Assembly: GCF_014637725.1 (NCBI RefSeq) | Contig: NZ_BMFC01000014.1 | Location: forward strand, 1 to 64,000 | DNA from: Marivita lacus | GTDB taxonomy: Bacteria; Pseudomonadota; Alphaproteobacteria; Rhodobacterales; Rhodobacteraceae | Length of the DNA stretch: 64,000 bases | Reading direction: 5' to 3' | Part shown: piece after piece, positions 55,978 to 64,000 of the stretch | Layout: each line of letters starts with the position of its first letter | How positions within the stretch are numbered: position 1 is the first letter of the stretch | Program-made: the position numbers and the translations under genes | Notes under the pieces: model-generated | Database searches by the model: none | What the model saw: the letters and a program-made list of their open reading frames with translations, nothing else | Told to the model about the DNA's origin: nothing

Positions 55978-56008
55978 ACAAATAGGTCATTCTGACTGAC
56001 CTATTTGT
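55978..56008. promoter_or_regulatory. 12-bp perfect inverted repeat downstream of the antiporter
   Basis: ACAAATAGGTCA (55978-55989), seven bases, then TGACCTATTTGT (55997-56008). It lies in the 277-base gap between the convergent antiporter and tyrosine-phosphatase genes, which is A/T-rich and otherwise empty. No T run follows, so it could be an operator, a weak terminator or a remnant of a mobile element. Confidence 0.55.
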
Positions 56009-56187
56009 CCTTGCATGGGCGGTCTTGACCTGAAGGACCACCTCGCTGCTTTATCCACTCGCCTTTTCAAACCCTAGATTTCTCCTATAATATCAAATAC
56101 TTAAATCTTGACGGCAGCGATACGCCAATTGCAATTATGCTTATGCAGGCAATGTTCAGAAACGGGTGATCGAGGCGCTCGTCCGTG

Positions 56188-56697
56188 TCAGTCCTCGTGA
56201 CGCAGGAACACCGCCGGTTCACGCTTGGCGGCGAGGGCCCACGCCATCTGCGCGTCCGTCTCGACCGCGCAGGGCCGGACCTGGCGCAGCCGGTTCAAGG
56301 CATCATCCGCCGCTTCGCCCATCTCGATCATCAGCCGCAGCGCCACCATGCCGGACCGCCCGCACCCACCGCGACAATGCACCAGAACCCGACCACCACC
56401 GGTCAGGGCGCGCCGCGCAGAGCTGCTGACCTCGGGCCATGCCTCCTCGAATTCCGCGTCGGGAACGCCAAAATCATGAATCGGCAAATGTTCCCAGCGG
56501 GTTCCGGTGTCCGAAAGGGTGCGCCACAATCCGGTCGCCCCCGCCGACACGAGCTCCGCCTCGGTCACAAGTGACATCACGATCGACGGCTTCCATGCGA
56601 TGATGTGCGTGATGTCGCCAGCATAATCGCGCTCCCCGCCCGGAATCGGCGAAATGGCCAGAATGCCCTGTCCGACCGACACCGCGTAGACGATCAT
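56188..56697 (-). CDS. tyrosine/dual-specificity phosphatase-family protein
   Basis: 169 residues. The cysteine-phosphatase P-loop is H107-C108-RGGCG-R114-S115-G116, an intact C-X5-R. A candidate general acid is Asp75 in PIHDFGVPD. The fold is closest to CDKN3/PTP-like bacterial proteins. Cytoplasmic; substrate unknown. It has its own start with no close upstream gene on its strand (202-base gap). Confidence 0.88.
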   Translation of the reverse strand: MIVYAVSVGQGILAISPIPGGERDYAGDITHIIAWKPSIVMSLVTEAELVSAGATGLWRTLSDTGTRWEHLPIHDFGVPDAEFEEAWPEVSSSARRALTGGGRVLVHCRGGCGRSGMVALRLMIEMGEAADDALNRLRQVRPCAVETDAQMAWALAAKREPAVFLRHED

Positions 56698-56899
56698 CTC
56701 ACACCCTTTTGCGCCTCGAACGAGACGTCGCTGCGGATGTTGCCGATTTCAAACCCAGTGAAAAACCGGTGCGCGCATGACCCTCGACTGCGACGACGAT
56801 CTTCGATCTTGCGGCTGCCGCGACTGCCCTTCAGGCGCATATCATCCCCCCTCACTCAGGGTTTCATGATACACAAGCCACCCACGCAGGATAGCCCCA

Positions 56900-57691
56900 T
56901 CAATCGGCGTGACGGATCACCTTGGCGAGCGCCGCAAAGATCTGGGCGTTGGCGCACAGAACCGAACCGTCTTCCAAAGGCACCTGCCCAGGACGCACCC
57001 CTTCGACCAAGGCGCCCGCTTCGGCTGCGATCAACACGCCGGCCGCCAGATCGGTCACCGCGCCTTCGCGCTGCCAGAATCCGTCGAACCGCCCTGCCGC
57101 AACATAAGAGAGGTCCAAAGCCGACGATCCCGAGGCCCGCATGCCCGAACATTCCGGCATCACCCGTGCAAGATCCTTCAACGTGGCAGGCAAGGTCCGC
57201 TTCACGCTGAAGGGAACGGCGTGGCCCAACACCGCCTCGACCAGCTTGGTCCGGCTCGACACGCGCATGCGCTTGTTGTCGTTCAACCAGGCACCCTGCC
57301 CTTTTTCGGCATAGAACATCTCGTCCTTCGCGGGGTCGAACACCACCGCCGAAACGATCTGGCCCTTGTGTTCCAGCGCGATGGACACGGCGAAATGCGG
57401 CTGCCCGTGCAGGAAATTCGCACGGCCCTCGATCGGGTTCACGATCCAGCGGCGCGTCGGGTCTTCGCCCTCGGTCTCGCCCGTCGGGTCGACATAGCCA
57501 TAGGTCCCACGTGCGCCCGTCAGGTCATCGCGCAGGATGGCCCCTGCCGCCGTGGCCGAGCGCGAGACAAACTCGACAGCGTTCGACGCCGAGGTCTGCA
57601 GGTTCTCGACCTCGCGGAAGTCCTTGTTGAGCGACCGACCCGCCTTGCGGGCGGCTTTGATCATGATGTTGAGATTGGCGCTACCCTGCAT
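56900..57691 (-). CDS. inositol-monophosphatase-family protein with degenerate active site
   Basis: 263 residues from the ATG at 57691 (GGAGG 6 bases upstream; the ATG at 57694 is too close). The fold matches SuhB/IMPase through its length: MQGSANLNIMIKAARKAGRSL, FLHGQPHFAVSIALEHKG, VVFDPAKDEMFYAEKGQGAW. The metal motifs are altered. The usual D-P-[IL]-D-G-T-x-N-F is N85-P-I-E88-G-R90-A-N-F; the G-E-E motif is V-D-P-T-G-E-T; W-D-x-A-A-G is T-D-L-A-A-G (Asp214 kept). The frame is intact. Probably a pseudoenzyme with a binding or regulatory role. Confidence 0.85.
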   Translation of the reverse strand: MQGSANLNIMIKAARKAGRSLNKDFREVENLQTSASNAVEFVSRSATAAGAILRDDLTGARGTYGYVDPTGETEGEDPTRRWIVNPIEGRANFLHGQPHFAVSIALEHKGQIVSAVVFDPAKDEMFYAEKGQGAWLNDNKRMRVSSRTKLVEAVLGHAVPFSVKRTLPATLKDLARVMPECSGMRASGSSALDLSYVAAGRFDGFWQREGAVTDLAAGVLIAAEAGALVEGVRPGQVPLEDGSVLCANAQIFAALAKVIRHAD

Positions 57692-57869
57692 CATGGGCCT
57701 CCGGCTGTTCGGGATCAGACCGGGCGTATAAGCGGGACAGCCACCAATGCCAAGGGGGCGCGGGCGATGACGGCATTTCACGACACTGTCAGCTGTGTAT
57801 CAACCTCCTTCTTTCCGTGGCGTCACCCCCCAACTGTGATGCAAAGTTGTTGAAAAAGGATGAACGCCC

Positions 57870-58316
57870 ATGAACCGCCGCAGATTTTCCGCCCTTGTCC
57901 TCGCCACCCCTGCACTCTGGCTCGCGCGCCCGGCCCTCGCCCGCGAACCCGAGATCTACCAGAACGGCGGAATCGCCATCGACGGCTCTGACCCCGTCGG
58001 CTACTTCACCACGGGCGGCCCGGTGCCCGGCGACGACGTGACCGTGGACTACAAGGGCGCAACCTGGCGCTTTGCCGAGCAAGCCTCCGCCGACGCCTTC
58101 GCCGCCAACCCGACCGCCTACGCCCCCGCCTTCGGAGGCTACTGCGCCTTCGCCGCCTCCCGCGGTTACCTCGCGCCGACAATCCCCGAGGCCTGGACGA
58201 TCCACGAGGGCACGCTCTACCTCAACGCCAACCTGCGCGCCCGTGAGTTATGGCTCGAGGACATCCCCGGCAACATCGCCAAGGGTGAAGCGAATTGGCC
58301 GGGGATTTTGGGCTAA
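57870..58316 (+). CDS. exported YHS-domain protein
   Basis: 148 residues with a Tat-like signal (NRRRFSALVLATPALWLARPALA). The YHS-type core is GIAIDGSDPVGYFTTGGPVPGDDVTVDYKGATWRFAEQASADAFAANPTAYAPAFGGYCAFAASRGYL. The AFGGYCA block with its single cysteine is typical, and the family may bind metal. Periplasmic. Function unknown. Confidence 0.88.
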   Translation: MNRRRFSALVLATPALWLARPALAREPEIYQNGGIAIDGSDPVGYFTTGGPVPGDDVTVDYKGATWRFAEQASADAFAANPTAYAPAFGGYCAFAASRGYLAPTIPEAWTIHEGTLYLNANLRARELWLEDIPGNIAKGEANWPGILG

Positions 58317-58373
58317 CCCGTGGGGTGCGTGATCTCACGCACCCCCGTGCCTCCGCCCGTCAACGTGCTGAAA

Positions 58374-59279
58374 TCACCCCAACAACCCCTCAAACTCCCG
58401 CCATTCCCCCTTGGACATGCCAGAGGTCTCCTGCGTCACGGACTCGCCCTTGAGCATCCGCCGCACGCAGTCCAGCGCGGTCGCCGACAGCGTAGCGCCC
58501 CCCATGCGGTAATCCTCGAAGGCGCGATAAGCGAAGGGAACCCAGTCGGCGACGACTTTGCAAATCTCGTCGGCGTAAACCCTTATTTCATACTGCGCAT
58601 GCGAATCTGCCCGGAGTCGGAGGAAATGGAGCAGGTTGTGCAGATCGACCTTCCAATACCATTGCGTATAGATGTTCGCGGGCAGGTTCATCCGGGCCAG
58701 TTCGCGCGCCAGTCCCTGTTGGCCCTCTTGGCTGATCATCTCTTCGTAATGATCGTAGCAGCGCATCGCGTCCTCGCGCAGCAGGCGCAGCACGCGGTCC
58801 GCTTCCTCACCCTCCAGCGCCGCACCGCGCCCCTGGTTGTTCACCACCGACTGCGCGTTCAGGTGTTCCGGCGCGGGGATATAGAACTCCCGATCCAGAA
58901 TCGAATACCGGGCCGAGTATTCGTTGACGTTGGCCGTGCGGTGCCTGATCCATTGCCGCGCAACGAAAACGGGCAGTTTGACGTGCAGCTTGATCTCGCA
59001 CATCTCGAACGGCGTCGAATGCCAGTGCCGCATCAGATACCGGATCAGCCCTTCGTCGTTCTGTACGGATTTCGTGCCCTTGCCGTACGACACCCGCGCC
59101 GCCTGGCAGATCGCGGCGTCGTCACCCATGTAATCCACCACCCGGATGAACCCGTGATCCAGCACCGGATAGGCGGTATACAGATGCGCCTCCATGCCCT
59201 CGCTGACCGCGCGCAGCGTCTGTTGCGGCGCACCGCGCTGTTCGGTGATTTCGGCCTGTTGTTCCGGCGACAGGGGCAT
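58374..59279 (-). CDS. thyX: FAD-dependent thymidylate synthase
   Basis: 301 residues from the ATG at 59279 (AAAGGATTCGCC upstream). Makes dTMP from dUMP with methylene-THF and NADPH. The ThyX motif [15 protein letters not shown] fits RHRxxSxNxxSxR with Ala in place of the first Ser. Other blocks are [28 protein letters not shown] and [27 protein letters not shown]. It is not linked to folA, as expected of ThyX organisms. Confidence 0.96.
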
Positions 59280-59493
59280 GGCGAATCCTTTCCCACTAGG
59301 ATGAGTCGTCACCAACTATATCTCGGGGGGTGCTCCGCAGGAACCACCAAGGATGGTATCTTGCACCGAGGTCGCAGTCCTCCTCTTTTTCGCGCCCACC
59401 CGCGCGCAATGCGTTGACTTTCAACGAACGCCACCGGATTTTCGGAGGAGGGGTCGCACAGAAGACCAAAAGTTAGCCGGGGCAGTATCTTTC

Positions 59494-60639
59494 ATGACAC
59501 GCATTCTATTCCTCATCCTGTGTTTGGGCTTCGTGGCCGCCTGCGACAGCGGCGGAGGCGACGTTCTGCGCGCACCAACCACCGGCGATGGCACCGGAAC
59601 GGATGCCGACGGTGACGGCACCCCGGATGAAACCCCGATCACCAGCGATCGTGGCACCCCGGAACTGCCCCCCGGCACGACGAACCCGACCCCGAACAAC
59701 GAGATCGTCCGCAGGGAAGCGCGCGATGATGAGGACGGCGGAGGTTTCGCAACAAACATCCAATACCTCAACGATCAGGGTCAGGACGAATTCTTCGTCG
59801 ACAACATCGCCTTCGACGGTGACAACGTCTACACGCGCGGCGATCCGGTCACCGGCGTGGCACAGCTTGGGTCATTTGCGGTCTATGAAGGTGCCGAAAC
59901 CACCGAAGACCCGGTGACGGGAACCACGCTGCGCACCTTCACATATCGCGCGATCTATGGCCGCAGCACCAACGGCGAAACGGAATTCGCAATCGTGCGA
60001 TCAGGCTCCTACGTCGATTTCGGCTTCGGCGGCTTTGTCTATCAACGCAACGGGTTCGACGACGATGGCAACGCGGTCAGGCTGGTCCTGCCCGAAGAAG
60101 GGGACGCGCGTTATCTCGGCGATTATGCAGGCATTCGCGTCTTCCGGGGCCGAGGCGGTTTGGAATATGTCGAAGGAGATGCCGAAATCTTCGTCGACTT
60201 CAAAGACTTCAACGATGGCAACCGCGGCGTGGCGCTTTTCGTGAACAACCGTCGCCTGTACGACATCAACGGCACCGAAATCACCCGCACCTATCTGGAC
60301 GCGCTGGGGCGCGGCGATGCAGCCGGTGATGGCTCCACGACGCGGTCGCTGATCCCCGAAATGGACGCAGAAGGCAATCCCGTTCTGCCGGCAATTCGTC
60401 CCGTCATCTCGCCGGATGATGCCGATGCCAATGGTGAAATCGCGGGCGAAGTGTTCGAGATCGCCCAGTTTGACAACGGCGACACAATCGAAAGCGGCGA
60501 GGGCACCTATTTTGCGATCGTCTCTGGAGAGGATGCAGGCGAAATTGTCGGCGTTCTTGTGATGACGGGCGATGACCCGCGCTTTGACAACGAGGTCACC
60601 TACCAGGAAACAGGTGGGTTCATCGTCTATCGCCAGTGA
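59494..60639 (+). CDS. surface lipoprotein candidate, TbpB-like, partner of the Slam protein
   Basis: 381 residues from the ATG at 59494. Lipobox V14-A-A-C17. The residue after the lipidated Cys is Asp. A 50-residue Gly/Thr/Pro/Asp-rich linker follows. The rest is beta-rich: YRAIYGRSTNGETEFAIVRSGSYVDFGFGGFVYQRNGFDDDGNAVRLVLPEEGDARYLGDYAGIRVFRGRGGLEY...GDAEIFVDFKDF. This resembles the barrel domains of transferrin-binding-protein-B-like solute-binding lipoproteins. The stop overlaps the downstream Slam start, so it is the natural cargo. The ligand is unknown. Confidence 0.75.
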   Translation: MTRILFLILCLGFVAACDSGGGDVLRAPTTGDGTGTDADGDGTPDETPITSDRGTPELPPGTTNPTPNNEIVRREARDDEDGGGFATNIQYLNDQGQDEFFVDNIAFDGDNVYTRGDPVTGVAQLGSFAVYEGAETTEDPVTGTTLRTFTYRAIYGRSTNGETEFAIVRSGSYVDFGFGGFVYQRNGFDDDGNAVRLVLPEEGDARYLGDYAGIRVFRGRGGLEYVEGDAEIFVDFKDFNDGNRGVALFVNNRRLYDINGTEITRTYLDALGRGDAAGDGSTTRSLIPEMDAEGNPVLPAIRPVISPDDADANGEIAGEVFEIAQFDNGDTIESGEGTYFAIVSGEDAGEIVGVLVMTGDDPRFDNEVTYQETGGFIVYRQ

Positions 60640-62003
60640 TGCCGTGTATGCGCCGCCGGATCAGCCTGACGCTCGCCGCCTTTATATTGGCCGCGGCGCA
60701 AGCCTCGGCGCAGGCTGTGCTCAGCCCCGAGCAAATGCGAGAACTGGCAGGACAGGCGGTGCTGCAGGGCCAGGCAGGGCTGGCCTATGATCTGACAGGC
60801 GCGCTGATCGACCGTGACGACACCGATCTTGACGCCCACCTGATCCGGTCGCGGGCGGCCCGCAACCTTGGTCGCAACGAAGACGCCCTGACCCATGCGC
60901 GCCGCGCCTGGGCGCTGTCCGATGAGGATCCGGCGAAGTATGCATCCGCGCTCGCGATGGCGCAGGCCCTGTCGTCGTCCGGGCGACGCACTGCCGCGCA
61001 ACTCTGGCTGCGCCGTGCGGTGCAGATCGCTCCGAATGAGGCGCTCAAGGCCCGCGCCGCCGAGGACTTCCGCTATGTGCGGCGGCAAAACCCGTGGTCC
61101 ACAGCCCTGCGGTTTTCGATTGCGCCAAGCTCGAACATCAACAATGGCAGCCGCAACGAAACCTCCGAACTCTTCGGCCTGCCCTTCCAGTTTGCGCTGG
61201 AGGGCGAGGCGCGCGCGCTGTCCGGTGTCGAGATCTCGACCGGGCTGAGCATGCGCTACCGCCTCGCGAACACTGACCGCAAGCGGACCGATCTTCTGTT
61301 CGGTCTGTCGTATCGAACCTATGTGCTCTCCGACGATGCCAAAGATATCGCGCCGGATGCCGAAGGGTCCGATTTTGCCACCGGCTCGGTCTTTGTCGGC
61401 CTGCAGGAGGATTACGCCCTGCCCGGTGGCCGGGCGCGGCTTGGATGGGACGCCCGACTGGGCCGGACCTGGTACGCTGGCAATCCGCTGCTGTCCTATA
61501 CCCGTCTGGGCGCAAATTATCGCCGAGTGGCCGGGGATAACGGGATGCTGAGCCTGTCGCTCAACCGCGAGGGGCAGAACGGCGAAAACGGTCGGCAGGA
61601 TGCGACGATCTGGAGCGCGCAACTGGGTTACGGCATGTCGCTTGCCAGCGGCGATACAGTGTCGCTGTCCACCAGTTTTCTGAACTCGCACAGCGATGCG
61701 GATTACCTCGATTACACGCAACGCGCGATCTCGGCGCGCTACGGCCTGGCCAATCCCATCGGTCCGGCACAACTGGAATTTGGCCTGACCCTGTCCGAAA
61801 AGCGCCATGAGGTGTCGAGCCTGACAGCCGATGGCCGCGACGAGCGCAGCATTTCCGTCAGCGTTACCGCAGCCCTGCCGGAGATCGATTTCTACGGCTT
61901 CATTCCGACAATCACCCTGAATGCGGAGCGGACCGAGGCCAATATCGACCTCTACGAGACCGAAAATTTCGGCATCCAGCTTGGTATTCGATCCGCCTTC
62001 TGA
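60639..62003 (+). CDS. Slam-type surface lipoprotein assembly modifier (type XI secretion)
   Basis: 454 residues. The ATG at 60639 overlaps the previous TGA by one base; the ATG at 60648 is the alternative. The signal peptide is RRRISLTLAAFILAAAQASAQ. A helical TPR-like domain (about 28-145) has DALTHARRAWALSDEDPAKYASALAMAQAL. The hallmark R-R-Q-N-P-W at 148-153 and S-N-I-N-N-G at 165-170 open the 14-strand DUF560 barrel. The last strands are amphipathic and the C-terminal residue is Phe, as in outer-membrane proteins. It should flip its partner lipoprotein to the cell surface. Confidence 0.8.
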   Translation: MPCMRRRISLTLAAFILAAAQASAQAVLSPEQMRELAGQAVLQGQAGLAYDLTGALIDRDDTDLDAHLIRSRAARNLGRNEDALTHARRAWALSDEDPAKYASALAMAQALSSSGRRTAAQLWLRRAVQIAPNEALKARAAEDFRYVRRQNPWSTALRFSIAPSSNINNGSRNETSELFGLPFQFALEGEARALSGVEISTGLSMRYRLANTDRKRTDLLFGLSYRTYVLSDDAKDIAPDAEGSDFATGSVFVGLQEDYALPGGRARLGWDARLGRTWYAGNPLLSYTRLGANYRRVAGDNGMLSLSLNREGQNGENGRQDATIWSAQLGYGMSLASGDTVSLSTSFLNSHSDADYLDYTQRAISARYGLANPIGPAQLEFGLTLSEKRHEVSSLTADGRDERSISVSVTAALPEIDFYGFIPTITLNAERTEANIDLYETENFGIQLGIRSAF

Positions 62004-62072
62004 CACCGCTTTGGCACTCGACATCGCGGCGAATTGGCCTAGCCTCTTGGGGAACCAAACCAAGAGGACACT

Positions 62073-62501
62073 ATGCCCCTACGCTATCTCCATACCATGG
62101 TCCGCGTGAAAGACCTTGAAGAATCGCAGAAATTCTACAGCCTGTTGGGCCTCAAAGAGACCCGTCGCATGGACAATGAAAAGGGGCGGTTCACGCTGAT
62201 CTTCATGGCGCCCGAGGGGCAGGAGGACTGTCCGGTCGAACTGACCTACAACTGGGACGGTGATGACGGACTGCCGTCGGACAGCCGTCATTTCGGCCAC
62301 CTCGCCTACCGCGTCGATAACATTTATGACACCTGCCAGCACCTGATGGACAATGGCGTCACGATCAACCGTCCGCCGCGCGACGGGCATATGGCGTTTG
62401 TGCGCTCACCAGACAACATCTCGATCGAACTGCTGCAGGCCGGCGACGCGCTGCCACCGCAAGAGCCATGGTCCAGCATGGAAAATACCGGTCACTGGTA
62501 A
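62073..62501 (+). CDS. gloA: lactoylglutathione lyase (glyoxalase I)-like protein
   Basis: 142 residues of the VOC fold. Metal-ligand blocks are YLHTMVRVKDLEESQKFYSLLGL (His7), VELTYNWD (Glu), HFGHLAYRVDN (His) and ISIELLQ (Glu), the four ligands expected of GloA. It detoxifies methylglyoxal as the glutathione hemithioacetal. GAGGACACT precedes the start. It lies 69 bases after the Slam gene. Confidence 0.92.
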   Translation: MPLRYLHTMVRVKDLEESQKFYSLLGLKETRRMDNEKGRFTLIFMAPEGQEDCPVELTYNWDGDDGLPSDSRHFGHLAYRVDNIYDTCQHLMDNGVTINRPPRDGHMAFVRSPDNISIELLQAGDALPPQEPWSSMENTGHW

Positions 62502-62505
62502 TGTG

Positions 62506-63216
62506 ATGCGGCACGTCGCGACAGCCCTCGCGCTGGCGGTCTGGTGGGCGTTCGCGGCACCCGTTCAGGCGCAAGGCCACTGCCGACTGGCGCTTGTGCT
62601 TGCGCTCGACGTGTCGTCGTCAGTCGATGCACGGGAATATGAGCTTCAGCGTGACGGCCTTGCCGCCGCGCTGGGTGATCCGACGATCCGCAGCGCGATC
62701 CTCGATGGCGACGGGCATGTCGCCATCACAATCTATGAATGGAGTGGCAGGCGGCAGAGCGTGATGATCCGCGAATGGAGCCGCCTGACCGACAACCGGT
62801 CGATTGACGAAGTCATCCAGTCTCTGCGATCCGCCCCCCGCAGTCATTCGCGGTTCCCCACGGCGATGGGCTATGCGCTTGGATACGGAGCAACGCTGCT
62901 GTCGCGCGGGCCGGAATGTGATCGACGGGTGATCGACCTGTCCGGCGACGGCGAGAACAATGACGGCTTTCCACCGCGTCTGGCTTACACGCATTATCCC
63001 TTTGCCAATGTCACGGTCAACGGCTTGGCAGTGCTGGGCGGGTCGCAGGATGTGGTGGATTACTTCCAGCGCGAGGTGCGCCACGGGTTCGGCGCTTTTG
63101 TCGAAACCTCGGAAGGGTACGAGGGCTACCGAGATGCAATGACCCGCAAGCTGTTGCGCGAGTTGAACGACATGATCCTCGGGGCCAATCCGGTCGAAAG
63201 GTCCCGGCCCGGCTAG
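62506..63216 (+). CDS. DUF1194 exported von Willebrand factor A-like protein
   Basis: 236 residues from the ATG at 62506, four bases past the gloA stop. A signal peptide (MRHVATALALAVWWAFAAPVQA) is followed by a vWA-like domain with a MIDAS motif D35-V-S-S-S39 and VIDLSGDGENNDG. The region ASYNP-like is absent, but GFGAFVETSEGYEGYRDAMTRKLLREL fits DUF1194. Periplasmic, metal-dependent protein interaction is likely. Its last four bases overlap the convergent MarR gene. Confidence 0.88.
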   Translation: MRHVATALALAVWWAFAAPVQAQGHCRLALVLALDVSSSVDAREYELQRDGLAAALGDPTIRSAILDGDGHVAITIYEWSGRRQSVMIREWSRLTDNRSIDEVIQSLRSAPRSHSRFPTAMGYALGYGATLLSRGPECDRRVIDLSGDGENNDGFPPRLAYTHYPFANVTVNGLAVLGGSQDVVDYFQREVRHGFGAFVETSEGYEGYRDAMTRKLLRELNDMILGANPVERSRPG

Positions 63217-63710
63217 TAGATATAGCGGATCTGATCGGTCCAGTAGCGTTCCATGCGGCGCAGGGTGGTGCTCATGTCGCCCAAGGTCCCGTGGTCGATC
63301 ACATTCTTTGCGATCAGCCCATCGGCATGGCGGGCGAAGAGCGCCGAAATGATATCCCGGATTTCGCGTCCGCGTGGCGTCAGCCTGACCCGCACCGACC
63401 TGCGGTCGATCTCGCAGCGCTGGTGATGCATGTATCCCATATCCACGAGTTTCTTGAGGTTGTAGCTGACATTGCTGCCTTGATAATAGCCACGGGTCTT
63501 CAATTCGCCTGCCGTCACCTCGTTGTCCCCGATGTTGAACAGGAGCAGCGCCTGAACAGCGTTGATTTCGAGGATGCCGACCCGTTCGAATTCATCCTTG
63601 ATCACATCGAGCAGCAGGCGGTGCAGACGTTCCACCAGCGCGAGCGCTTCCAGATAGCCGTCCAACATGGCGTTGGCGCCGTTCCGATCAACAGATGCAT
63701 GGATGCTCAT
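63213..63710 (-). CDS. MarR-family regulator (LdtR-like)
   Basis: 165 residues of winged-helix fold: EINAVQALLLFNIGDNEVTAGELKTRGYYQGSNVSYNLKKLVDMGYMHHQRCEIDRRSVRVRLTPRG. The recognition helix is SNVSYNLKKLVD. The N-terminal dimerisation helix is ALALVERLHRLLLDVIKDEFERVG. The pattern is like LdtR of Rhizobiales, which controls cell-wall and osmotic genes. The 82 bases upstream should hold its promoter. Targets unknown. Confidence 0.87.
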   Translation of the reverse strand: MSIHASVDRNGANAMLDGYLEALALVERLHRLLLDVIKDEFERVGILEINAVQALLLFNIGDNEVTAGELKTRGYYQGSNVSYNLKKLVDMGYMHHQRCEIDRRSVRVRLTPRGREIRDIISALFARHADGLIAKNVIDHGTLGDMSTTLRRMERYWTDQIRYIY

Positions 63711-63792
63711 TCGTTTCTCCGCCTTGTCCGTCAGGCAGGAGAATCGTCCATAATCCCCAATAATCAGTTAAGTCCGGAACATTCTTTTCGGC

Positions 63793-64000
63793 TCAACGCT
63801 CGAAGGCGACTGACGAAATGTCCAAGATCATGTCGCGCAGGCCATCCGGGGCGGGTTTCTGGCCGCTGACCCACTGATACAAATCCTGATCGTTCTCCGA
63901 CAGGAGCGCATCATAGCGATCCAGCGTGGCATCATCAAATTCCTCGAGCCGCAGTTCCGCATACCGCGCGAGAATGAGGTCCATCTCCTTGATTCCACGG
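63793..64000 (-). CDS. sdhE: FAD assembly factor SdhE, start outside the window
   Basis: Frame open to the window edge; about 68 residues present. The sequence R-G-I-K-E-M-D-L-I-L-A-R-Y contains the SdhE hallmark RGxxEMD, so the ATG at 63984 inside it is the Met of this motif and not the start. LEEFDDATLDRYDALLSENDQDLYQWVSGQ is also typical. SdhE inserts FAD into succinate dehydrogenase SdhA. The N-terminus (about 20 residues) is missing. Confidence 0.88.
   Translation of the reverse strand, partial: RGIKEMDLILARYAELRLEEFDDATLDRYDALLSENDQDLYQWVSGQKPAPDGLRDMILDISSVAFER

Follow-up and report, generated by a model that had tools for sequence, protein, structure and literature searches.

The window considered here is the whole 64,000-nucleotide stretch of the Marivita lacus genome (contig NZ_BMFC01000014.1), of which positions 56000-64000 were inspected gene by gene. 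On its forward strand a gene for a lipoprotein, the cargo, is followed by a gene for an outer-membrane protein, the exporter, which an initial annotation had singled out as a candidate type XI secretion (T11SS) pair. We consider it very probable that the two form a T11SS pair of the marine cluster 3 kind, that is, a two-gene cassette for surface display that operates with no TonB receptor of its own. The sequence evidence for such a pair comprises family membership, the layout of the domains, linkage, co-variation, a common site and the absence of a TonB association; from these we infer that the cargo is lipidated, translocated and displayed at the cell surface. The features of the pair are the following (lengths in amino acids, aa; gene coordinates include the stop):

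59494..60639, +: cargo lipoprotein gene, 381 aa; open frame with ATG at 59494 and stop TGA at 60637-60639
59494..59544, +: signal peptide and lipobox, with the predicted lipidated Cys17 (codon 59542-59544) and Asp at +2; from the sequence
59668..60057, +: putative N-terminal effector domain, residues 59-188 (limits drawn by eye); contains the motif FAIVRxGxYxxYGFGGF
60058..60636, +: barrel domain of the C-terminal half (residues 189-381), TbpB_B_D/FHBP_C-like; from hhalign
60639..62003, +: predicted T11SS outer-membrane protein gene (Slam/DUF560/SlipAM type), 454 aa; ATG at 60639, C-terminal Phe
60870..61046, +: TPR part (residues 78-136) of the periplasmic N-terminal domain; sub-threshold TPR_19/TPR_14 matches
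61101..62000, +: beta-barrel (SlipAM) domain, from just behind NPW to the C-terminal Phe; SlipAM matches and profile alignment

The lipoprotein stop and the exporter start overlap exactly in TGATG, as the initial annotation had read them; a further in-frame ATG at 60648 is possibly the true start of the exporter.

Domain architecture of the exporter and the cargo

The affinities of the exporter emerge most clearly from its relatives. In a first alignment of 23 exporters, which comprises the window protein and two more distant members (L023 and L026), all 23 match SlipAM at E<=1 (best 3.4e-33), and in an alignment of cluster 3 exporters 45 of the 52 members, the window's included, do so at E<=0.01 (best 1.5e-12). 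The profile of these 52 sequences was compared using hhalign with a reference set of 30 SlipAM-positive proteins, obtained by searching 299 genomes of the phylum. It aligned over columns 28-453 of 456 with a probability of 100 and an E-value of 2.1e-44, which refers to one single pairwise comparison; at 14% identity, this alignment spans the TPR part and the barrel together. The initial assignment of the barrel to the DUF560/Slam family was thus upheld, and the profile comparison did not place it in another family instead. The TPR part proposed in the same annotation is sub-threshold in the window exporter alone (best 20 bits), and is backed by TPR_14 matches at E<=1 in 21 of the 23 exporters first aligned (the window's among them) as well as by matches of the exporter profile to TPR structures in the PDB. 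PDB searches with the exporter, by sequence alone and as a profile, recovered TPR proteins along with weak matches to unrelated proteins. Both motifs that had been noted earlier, RRxNPW (R148-W153) and SNINNG (S165-G170), are present, residues P163, N166 and N168 are invariant across the 52 aligned family members including the window's, and a signal peptide can be recognized by eye. Judged by these profiles and motifs, 60639-62003 is a type XI secretion (Slam/DUF560) protein.

The cargo opens with a lipobox containing Cys17; a linker comes next, variable and rich in Gly/Asp/Thr, and leads to the conserved N-terminal domain, behind which lies the C-terminal half. Lipidation is predicted at Cys17 of the lipobox (VAAC17), a residue that is invariant in 62 aligned cargos. 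As far as profile comparison can tell, the C-terminal half matches the T11SS cargo barrel of the TbpB_B_D/FHBP_C type: against 30 TbpB_B_D domains, hhalign returned probabilities of 94.8 for the whole cargo and 95.8 for the C-terminal half, whereas the controls, namely the reversed cargo, the exporter profile and the N-terminal half, gave 0.1 each. Among the 62 aligned cargos, 27 match FHBP_C (best 8.9e-5) and four TbpB_B_D (best 7.4e-4) at E<=1, the window's own matching neither; of ten cargos checked singly, five matched FHBP_C and one TbpB_B_D, all below the cut-off and all starting at residue 144 or beyond. The earlier description of beta-rich, TbpB-like repeats therefore survives in part. 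The C-terminal half is TbpB-like, but the N-terminal half scores only 0.1 against the barrel references and 0.8 against the C-terminal half, and we reject repeats in favor of one TbpB-like barrel only.

Searches of Pfam, NCBIfam and the PDB gave no match for the N-terminal domain, and a PDB sequence search with the cargo and its two profiles retrieved nothing. This domain is nevertheless the best-conserved region of the cargo, with a mean commonest-residue fraction of 0.60 as against 0.48 for the barrel and 0.38 for the linker (62 aligned named cargos, mostly near relatives). In this alignment, such conservation is the opposite of the pattern that a diversifying antigen would be expected to show.

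This architecture can be set against two known systems. Slam1 and TbpB of Neisseria, which belong to cluster 1, similarly combine a TPR plus SlipAM barrel exporter with a lipoprotein bearing a TbpB-type C-terminal barrel, a likeness drawn via the family profiles and not from Slam1 and TbpB themselves. However, the window cargo has one lobe in place of the two described for TbpB in the part of PMC8406197 cited here, carries a different N-terminal domain and has no adjoining TonB receptor. In layout, the pair also resembles NilB and NilC of Xenorhabdus nematophila, an exporter with a two-domain lipoprotein comprising an N-terminal effector and a C-terminal barrel (cited part of PMC9100927); a role in host association is known for NilC, whereas the window cargo is not known to have one. 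The neisserial Slam is stated to require Skp in the cited passage of PMC9090332, and the window's genome has a gene of the OmpH/Skp family.

Linkage and co-variation of the pair

The locus is of a kind already described bioinformatically in relatives. In the portions of PMC12282271 used here (Grossman et al. 2025, Fig. 8), it is shown for 11 strains with thyX, gloA and DUF1194, and the lipoprotein was predicted as cargo in ten of them from its signal sequence and AlphaFold models. The marine cluster 3 locus of Roseobacteraceae/Rhodobacteraceae described there and the window have the same set of genes, namely thyX, a signal peptidase II (SPII) lipoprotein with a C-terminal barrel, a T11SS exporter, a lactoylglutathione lyase and DUF1194; thus, all the elements by which a cluster 3 syntenic locus is recognized (exporter, thyX, glyoxalase, DUF1194 and barrel lipoprotein) are found in the window. 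These portions of its main text make no mention of Marivita, and state that the verified exporters all belong to cluster 1. They also call the cluster 3 cargo rare, with 31 open reading frames or 0.21 per exporter, and report it as absent in Pseudooceanicola marinus LMG 23705. What is new here is the frequency of the cargo and the positional nature of the neighbors.

Marivita, a genus of Roseobacteraceae (NCBI taxonomy), bears out the alphaproteobacterial, marine origin that had been surmised from the sequence. It also supplies the nearest named relatives, at no more than 86% identity, and both genes are present and adjacent in 17/17 genomes of the genus, the window's included. Among the best 80 loci of the 177 named relatives found, a tblastn relative of the cargo lies immediately upstream of the exporter in 79; at the remaining one (L124), the contig starts 372 bases before the exporter match. 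Beyond these, we sampled 150 genera of the family with one genome each, and the exporter profile matched 90 at E<=1e-5. We examined 96 of the 104 exporter places listed, the eight omitted being the window's own, two pieces of one gene split between contigs, second pieces in three cases and, in two, matches to the TPR part only. At 81 of the 96 places (78 genomes) the match reaches E<=1e-50, and a cargo, called by a cargo-profile match at E<=0.1 or a lipobox frame, lies upstream in 73 of these, 70 of them reaching 1e-5. In three cases the call is one of position and lipobox, the profile match covering signal and linker only at L177 and L195, and L178 having a lipobox frame only. A cargo accompanies the exporter at 72 of 76 places with thyX or gloA, and at one of five with neither. 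Fifteen weaker exporter matches include eight with an upstream lipobox frame or weak cargo match. Hence, the co-occurrence of the two genes, which the initial annotation had put forward as a check, holds in the genus (17/17), in the named loci (79/80) and in the family (73/81). The cargo lipoprotein is not rare and stands beside most exporters sampled, a result that goes beyond the cited portions of PMC12282271. Even LMG 23705 has an intact 348-aa lipobox frame between thyX and the exporter (L081, NZ_PGTC01000010.1), with 43% identity to the window cargo in the best tblastn segment, and the cargo is carried by both strains of Pseudooceanicola marinus that the 80 named loci include (L081:3761-4807 and L101:3722-4783). 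The likeliest reason for the mismatch with the cargo counts cited from that paper is that the cargos fall below the Pfam thresholds.

Of the 71 family places with a cargo-profile match (by domain score), at least 60% of the N-terminal domain is covered in 68 (68 genomes) and at least 60% of the C-terminal half in 60. Two types of cargo can be distinguished among the 71: 34 have a GFGG-like motif, as does the window's, and 27 have at least two cysteines within their final 45 residues, the two features never occurring together. The Cys-tailed type, exemplified by L171, L176, L181 and L193, ends in FVLxxCGTxxxxxxC and similar sequences. Variation in the cargo is also seen within Marivita. One genome (G007) has a second, solitary cargo (L045:1501-2409, - strand), 47% identical to the window's and with the lipobox ALAAC, on a contig (contig 25) without an exporter match; since a single exporter match was found in this genome, the same exporter may handle both cargos. 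In two others (L042 and L043 in genomes G010 and G012), the cargos are only 50-51% identical to the window's, the exporters being 68% and 78% identical; these cargos have an insert with two cysteines, and we read them as cases of the cargo being replaced and the exporter kept.

The two proteins co-vary beyond their neighbors. In a mirror-tree comparison of 59 named loci, the correlation of distances was 0.709 between cargo and exporter as against 0.431 between cargo and ThyX and 0.451 between cargo and GloA. With ThyX and GloA controlled, the partial correlation of cargo and exporter was 0.587, a value reached in 0/999 permutations, and without Marivita it was 0.574 (n=44). Joint decay of the pair is seen at four loci: both genes are fragmented in L202, the exporter is damaged and the cargo missing in L205 and L206, and L308 has a broken cargo and no exporter.

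The thyX-gloA site

The pair is flanked in the window by three genes that recur in cluster 3 loci:

58374..59279, -: thyX, FAD-dependent thymidylate synthase, divergent neighbor; start maybe farther out; TIGR02170, 1.6e-60
62073..62501, +: gloA-like lactoylglutathione lyase, downstream; TIGR00068, 4.9e-27, 94.6 bits (below the cut-off of 120)
62506..63216, +: DUF1194 gene (vWA-like), downstream; PF06707, 1.2e-64

These neighbors could be taken as parts of one system, in which the exporter has a part in thymidylate/folate, aldehyde or nickel metabolism or has DUF1194 proteins as its cargo, proposals found in the cited portions of PMC12282271. The counts given there near 145 cluster 3 exporters (DUF1194 102, glyoxalase 89, thymidylate synthase 77) speak for this, as does the position of gloA and DUF1194 in the window, close behind the pair and on the same strand. 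However, thyX and gloA have the same arrangement without the pair. At E<=1e-30, 149 of the 150 family genomes contain GloA and 122 contain ThyX (GloA places are those among the matches listed, incomplete at the weak end). In all 51 exporter-less genomes with both genes on one contig, thyX and gloA are divergent neighbors within 6 kb; 69 exporter-less genomes were counted, 18 of them lacking one gene or having the two on separate contigs, and one further genome had neither. The same holds for 63 of 66 exporter-bearing genomes, 14 more of the 80 lacking one gene or having them on separate contigs; one of the 63 (G148) has a gap of 169 bp and its exporter located elsewhere. The median gap is 181 bp without an exporter (n=51, 41 of them at <=400 bp) versus 2675 bp with one (n=61), and is 2793 bp in the window. 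No exporter remnant was found in the 51 exporter-less loci, one of which (L308) still carries the broken cargo gene. Since the adjacency of thyX and gloA persists without the pair, these neighbors are markers of an address and do not have to be partners. Gene thyX is part of the address and probably not of the system, and a fixed site would by itself largely account for the cited neighborhood counts.

For DUF1194 the picture is less clear-cut. It starts within 800 bases past gloA somewhat more commonly with the exporter (50/71 loci with enough sequence) than without (29/51), but the difference is not significant (Fisher p 0.13), and DUF1194 also occurs elsewhere in family genomes, with four matches in the window's genome. 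It may have a modest additional link to the exporter; we do not favor it as the cargo, and regard the whole neighborhood as being decidedly unlikely to constitute one system. A search of the open-licence literature found no paper on thyX-gloA neighborhoods without the exporter.

The cassette comes and goes at this one place, and does so non-randomly over the tree. On a tree of ThyX and GloA, its presence requires at least 25 changes, nine of which are forced by well-supported branches, whereas shuffled labels require a mean of 37, with 0/500 as low; in this tree (112 rows, short search) 43 of the 109 inner branches are weak, and gains and losses are not distinguishable. A single gain of the cassette is thereby rejected as a simple story. 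The gap between thyX and gloA may be a recurrent insertion spot. At four exporter-less loci (L284, L316, L324 and L332), it holds another frame of ~265-300 aa that resembles a membrane protein. In the plasmid collection searched, exporter relatives were detected in two records at 24-25% identity and cargo relatives in none; on these matches the pair does not look plasmid-borne.

Proposed function and alternatives

Under the interpretation that we prefer, the cargo would be exported by Sec as a prolipoprotein, lipidated on Cys17 and brought to the outer membrane. The TPR-plus-barrel protein made from the overlapping gene would then recognize the C-terminal barrel of the cargo and move the chain to the surface, where the lipid-anchored cargo would present its N-terminal domain, carried by a flexible linker. 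The cassette resides in the gap between the divergent thyX and gloA genes, and has repeatedly disappeared from this position or come back to it. As it appears to work without a dedicated TonB receptor, the likeliest role of the cargo would be the binding of a ligand or a surface and not TonB-coupled uptake, any particular bound partner being a guess.

The cluster 1 precedents suggest a different role, namely that of a nutrient receptor of the TbpB/HpuA type, in which a metal or cofactor captured by the lipoprotein is passed to a TonB-dependent receptor encoded elsewhere. Known cluster 1 cargos act as TonB-coupled receptors, a TonB receptor gene accompanies 120 of 185 lipoprotein-bearing Slam clusters in the cited part of PMC5449769, and the window's genome has two TonB-receptor matches. 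Both, however, are on other contigs (C9 and C2), and no TonB-dependent receptor was found beside the lipoprotein or on the window's contig, in line with the initial remark that no iron-transport TonB gene adjoins the pair. Across the family, receptor presence does not track that of the exporter, with 44/80 exporter genomes having a receptor at E<=1e-10 as against 40/70 others (Fisher p 0.87) and 36/80 exporter genomes having none at this cut-off. A TonB-coupled role is unlikely as a general rule, and for the present pair we likewise regard it as unlikely.

Several observations weigh against display of the cargo by the exporter. In all 16 named Marivita loci, position +2, next to the predicted lipidated Cys, is occupied by Asp or Glu. 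In Escherichia coli, Asp at +2 causes lipoproteins to be retained at the inner membrane, a rule that may apply here; one paper searched by terms held no passage on lipoprotein sorting in Rhodobacterales. Over all 70 named loci counted, the +2 residue is Gly in 34, Asp in 17, Ser in 12, Glu in five, Leu in one and Asn in one, L118 being excluded for its doubtful start. On its own, the window exporter scores 17.8 bits with SlipAM, below the Pfam cut-off of 22, which is an annotation threshold and not a biological feature, and this match is confined to a region towards the C-terminus (profile positions 170-280 of 288). The window cargo alone has no Pfam match and one chance-level match in NCBIfam. 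Eight of the 81 family exporter places lack an adjacent cargo, two at contig ends (L152 and L204, where 155 and 330 bases separate the contig end from the exporter match) and six not: L153 has kept the exporter without the cargo, L158, L184 and L203 are exporters off the thyX-gloA site with no cargo alongside, L206 has a broken exporter frame, and L205 (genome G092, contig 36) has a 348-aa exporter frame without the TPR part, a natural TPR-less variant. Decay is not joint at two loci, namely L153 and also L136, which has a stop in the exporter and an adjacent cargo frame that matches at 7e-126. Exporter distances correlate also with those of GloA (0.642) and ThyX (0.664), so that part of the co-variation reflects shared ancestry. 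Finally, the open-licence literature yielded no bench study of a cluster 3 exporter; to this extent the initial suggestion of an unstudied ligand or function stands, the locus itself having been described already (PMC12282271, Fig. 8).

The residue at +2 in Marivita would be in keeping with a lipoprotein that stays on the periplasmic face, next to a barrel with another task such as that of a channel or envelope scaffold. Against this stand the full-length SlipAM match, the TbpB-like C-terminal barrel, and the linkage and co-variation of the pair, and we consider such an arrangement highly improbable.

A further-reaching proposal can be made, albeit tentatively and with considerable doubt: the N-terminal half might be a new displayed effector domain for a conserved, non-TonB ligand, at least in the window's type of cargo, the cassette being switched on and off at the thyX-gloA address and the partners named in the literature being address only. 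By profile, this half can be recognized in the cargos of 68 other genera out of the 150 that were sampled. Such a pattern of presence and absence would be expected if display were alternately useful and costly, as for an adhesin exploited by phages or predators. Cluster 3 being the marine branch of type XI secretion, a cargo adjoining most exporters would make the question of whether cluster 3 has cargo directly testable on a single adjacent pair of genes in a marine bacterium that can be cultivated. Should thyX, gloA and DUF1194 be no more than an address, the proposals involving one-carbon, aldehyde or nickel metabolism would be left with much less support, and genomes that have this address but no exporter would serve as natural controls.

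Other features near the pair are the following:

59414..59442, +: candidate promoter of the pair; TTGACT (59414-59419), 17-bp spacer, GATTTT (59437-59442)
57870-58316: YHS-domain protein gene, neighbor of the pair
63213-63710, -: MarR-type regulator close to LdtR; 229 bits against a cut-off of 250 (NCBIfam)

Part of the promoter-like element, CGTTGACTTT, is kept in 16 of 17 aligned Marivita upstream regions including the window's, with L047 deviating, and 59414..59442 may well be the promoter of the pair. The upstream palindrome CGTTGA-CTT-TCAACG was rejected as an operator, as the genus keeps only CGTTGACTTT. The DUF1194 protein displays a MIDAS-like DVSSS motif right behind its likely signal peptide, and the MarR regulator gene, on the opposite strand, overlaps the 3' end of the DUF1194 gene.

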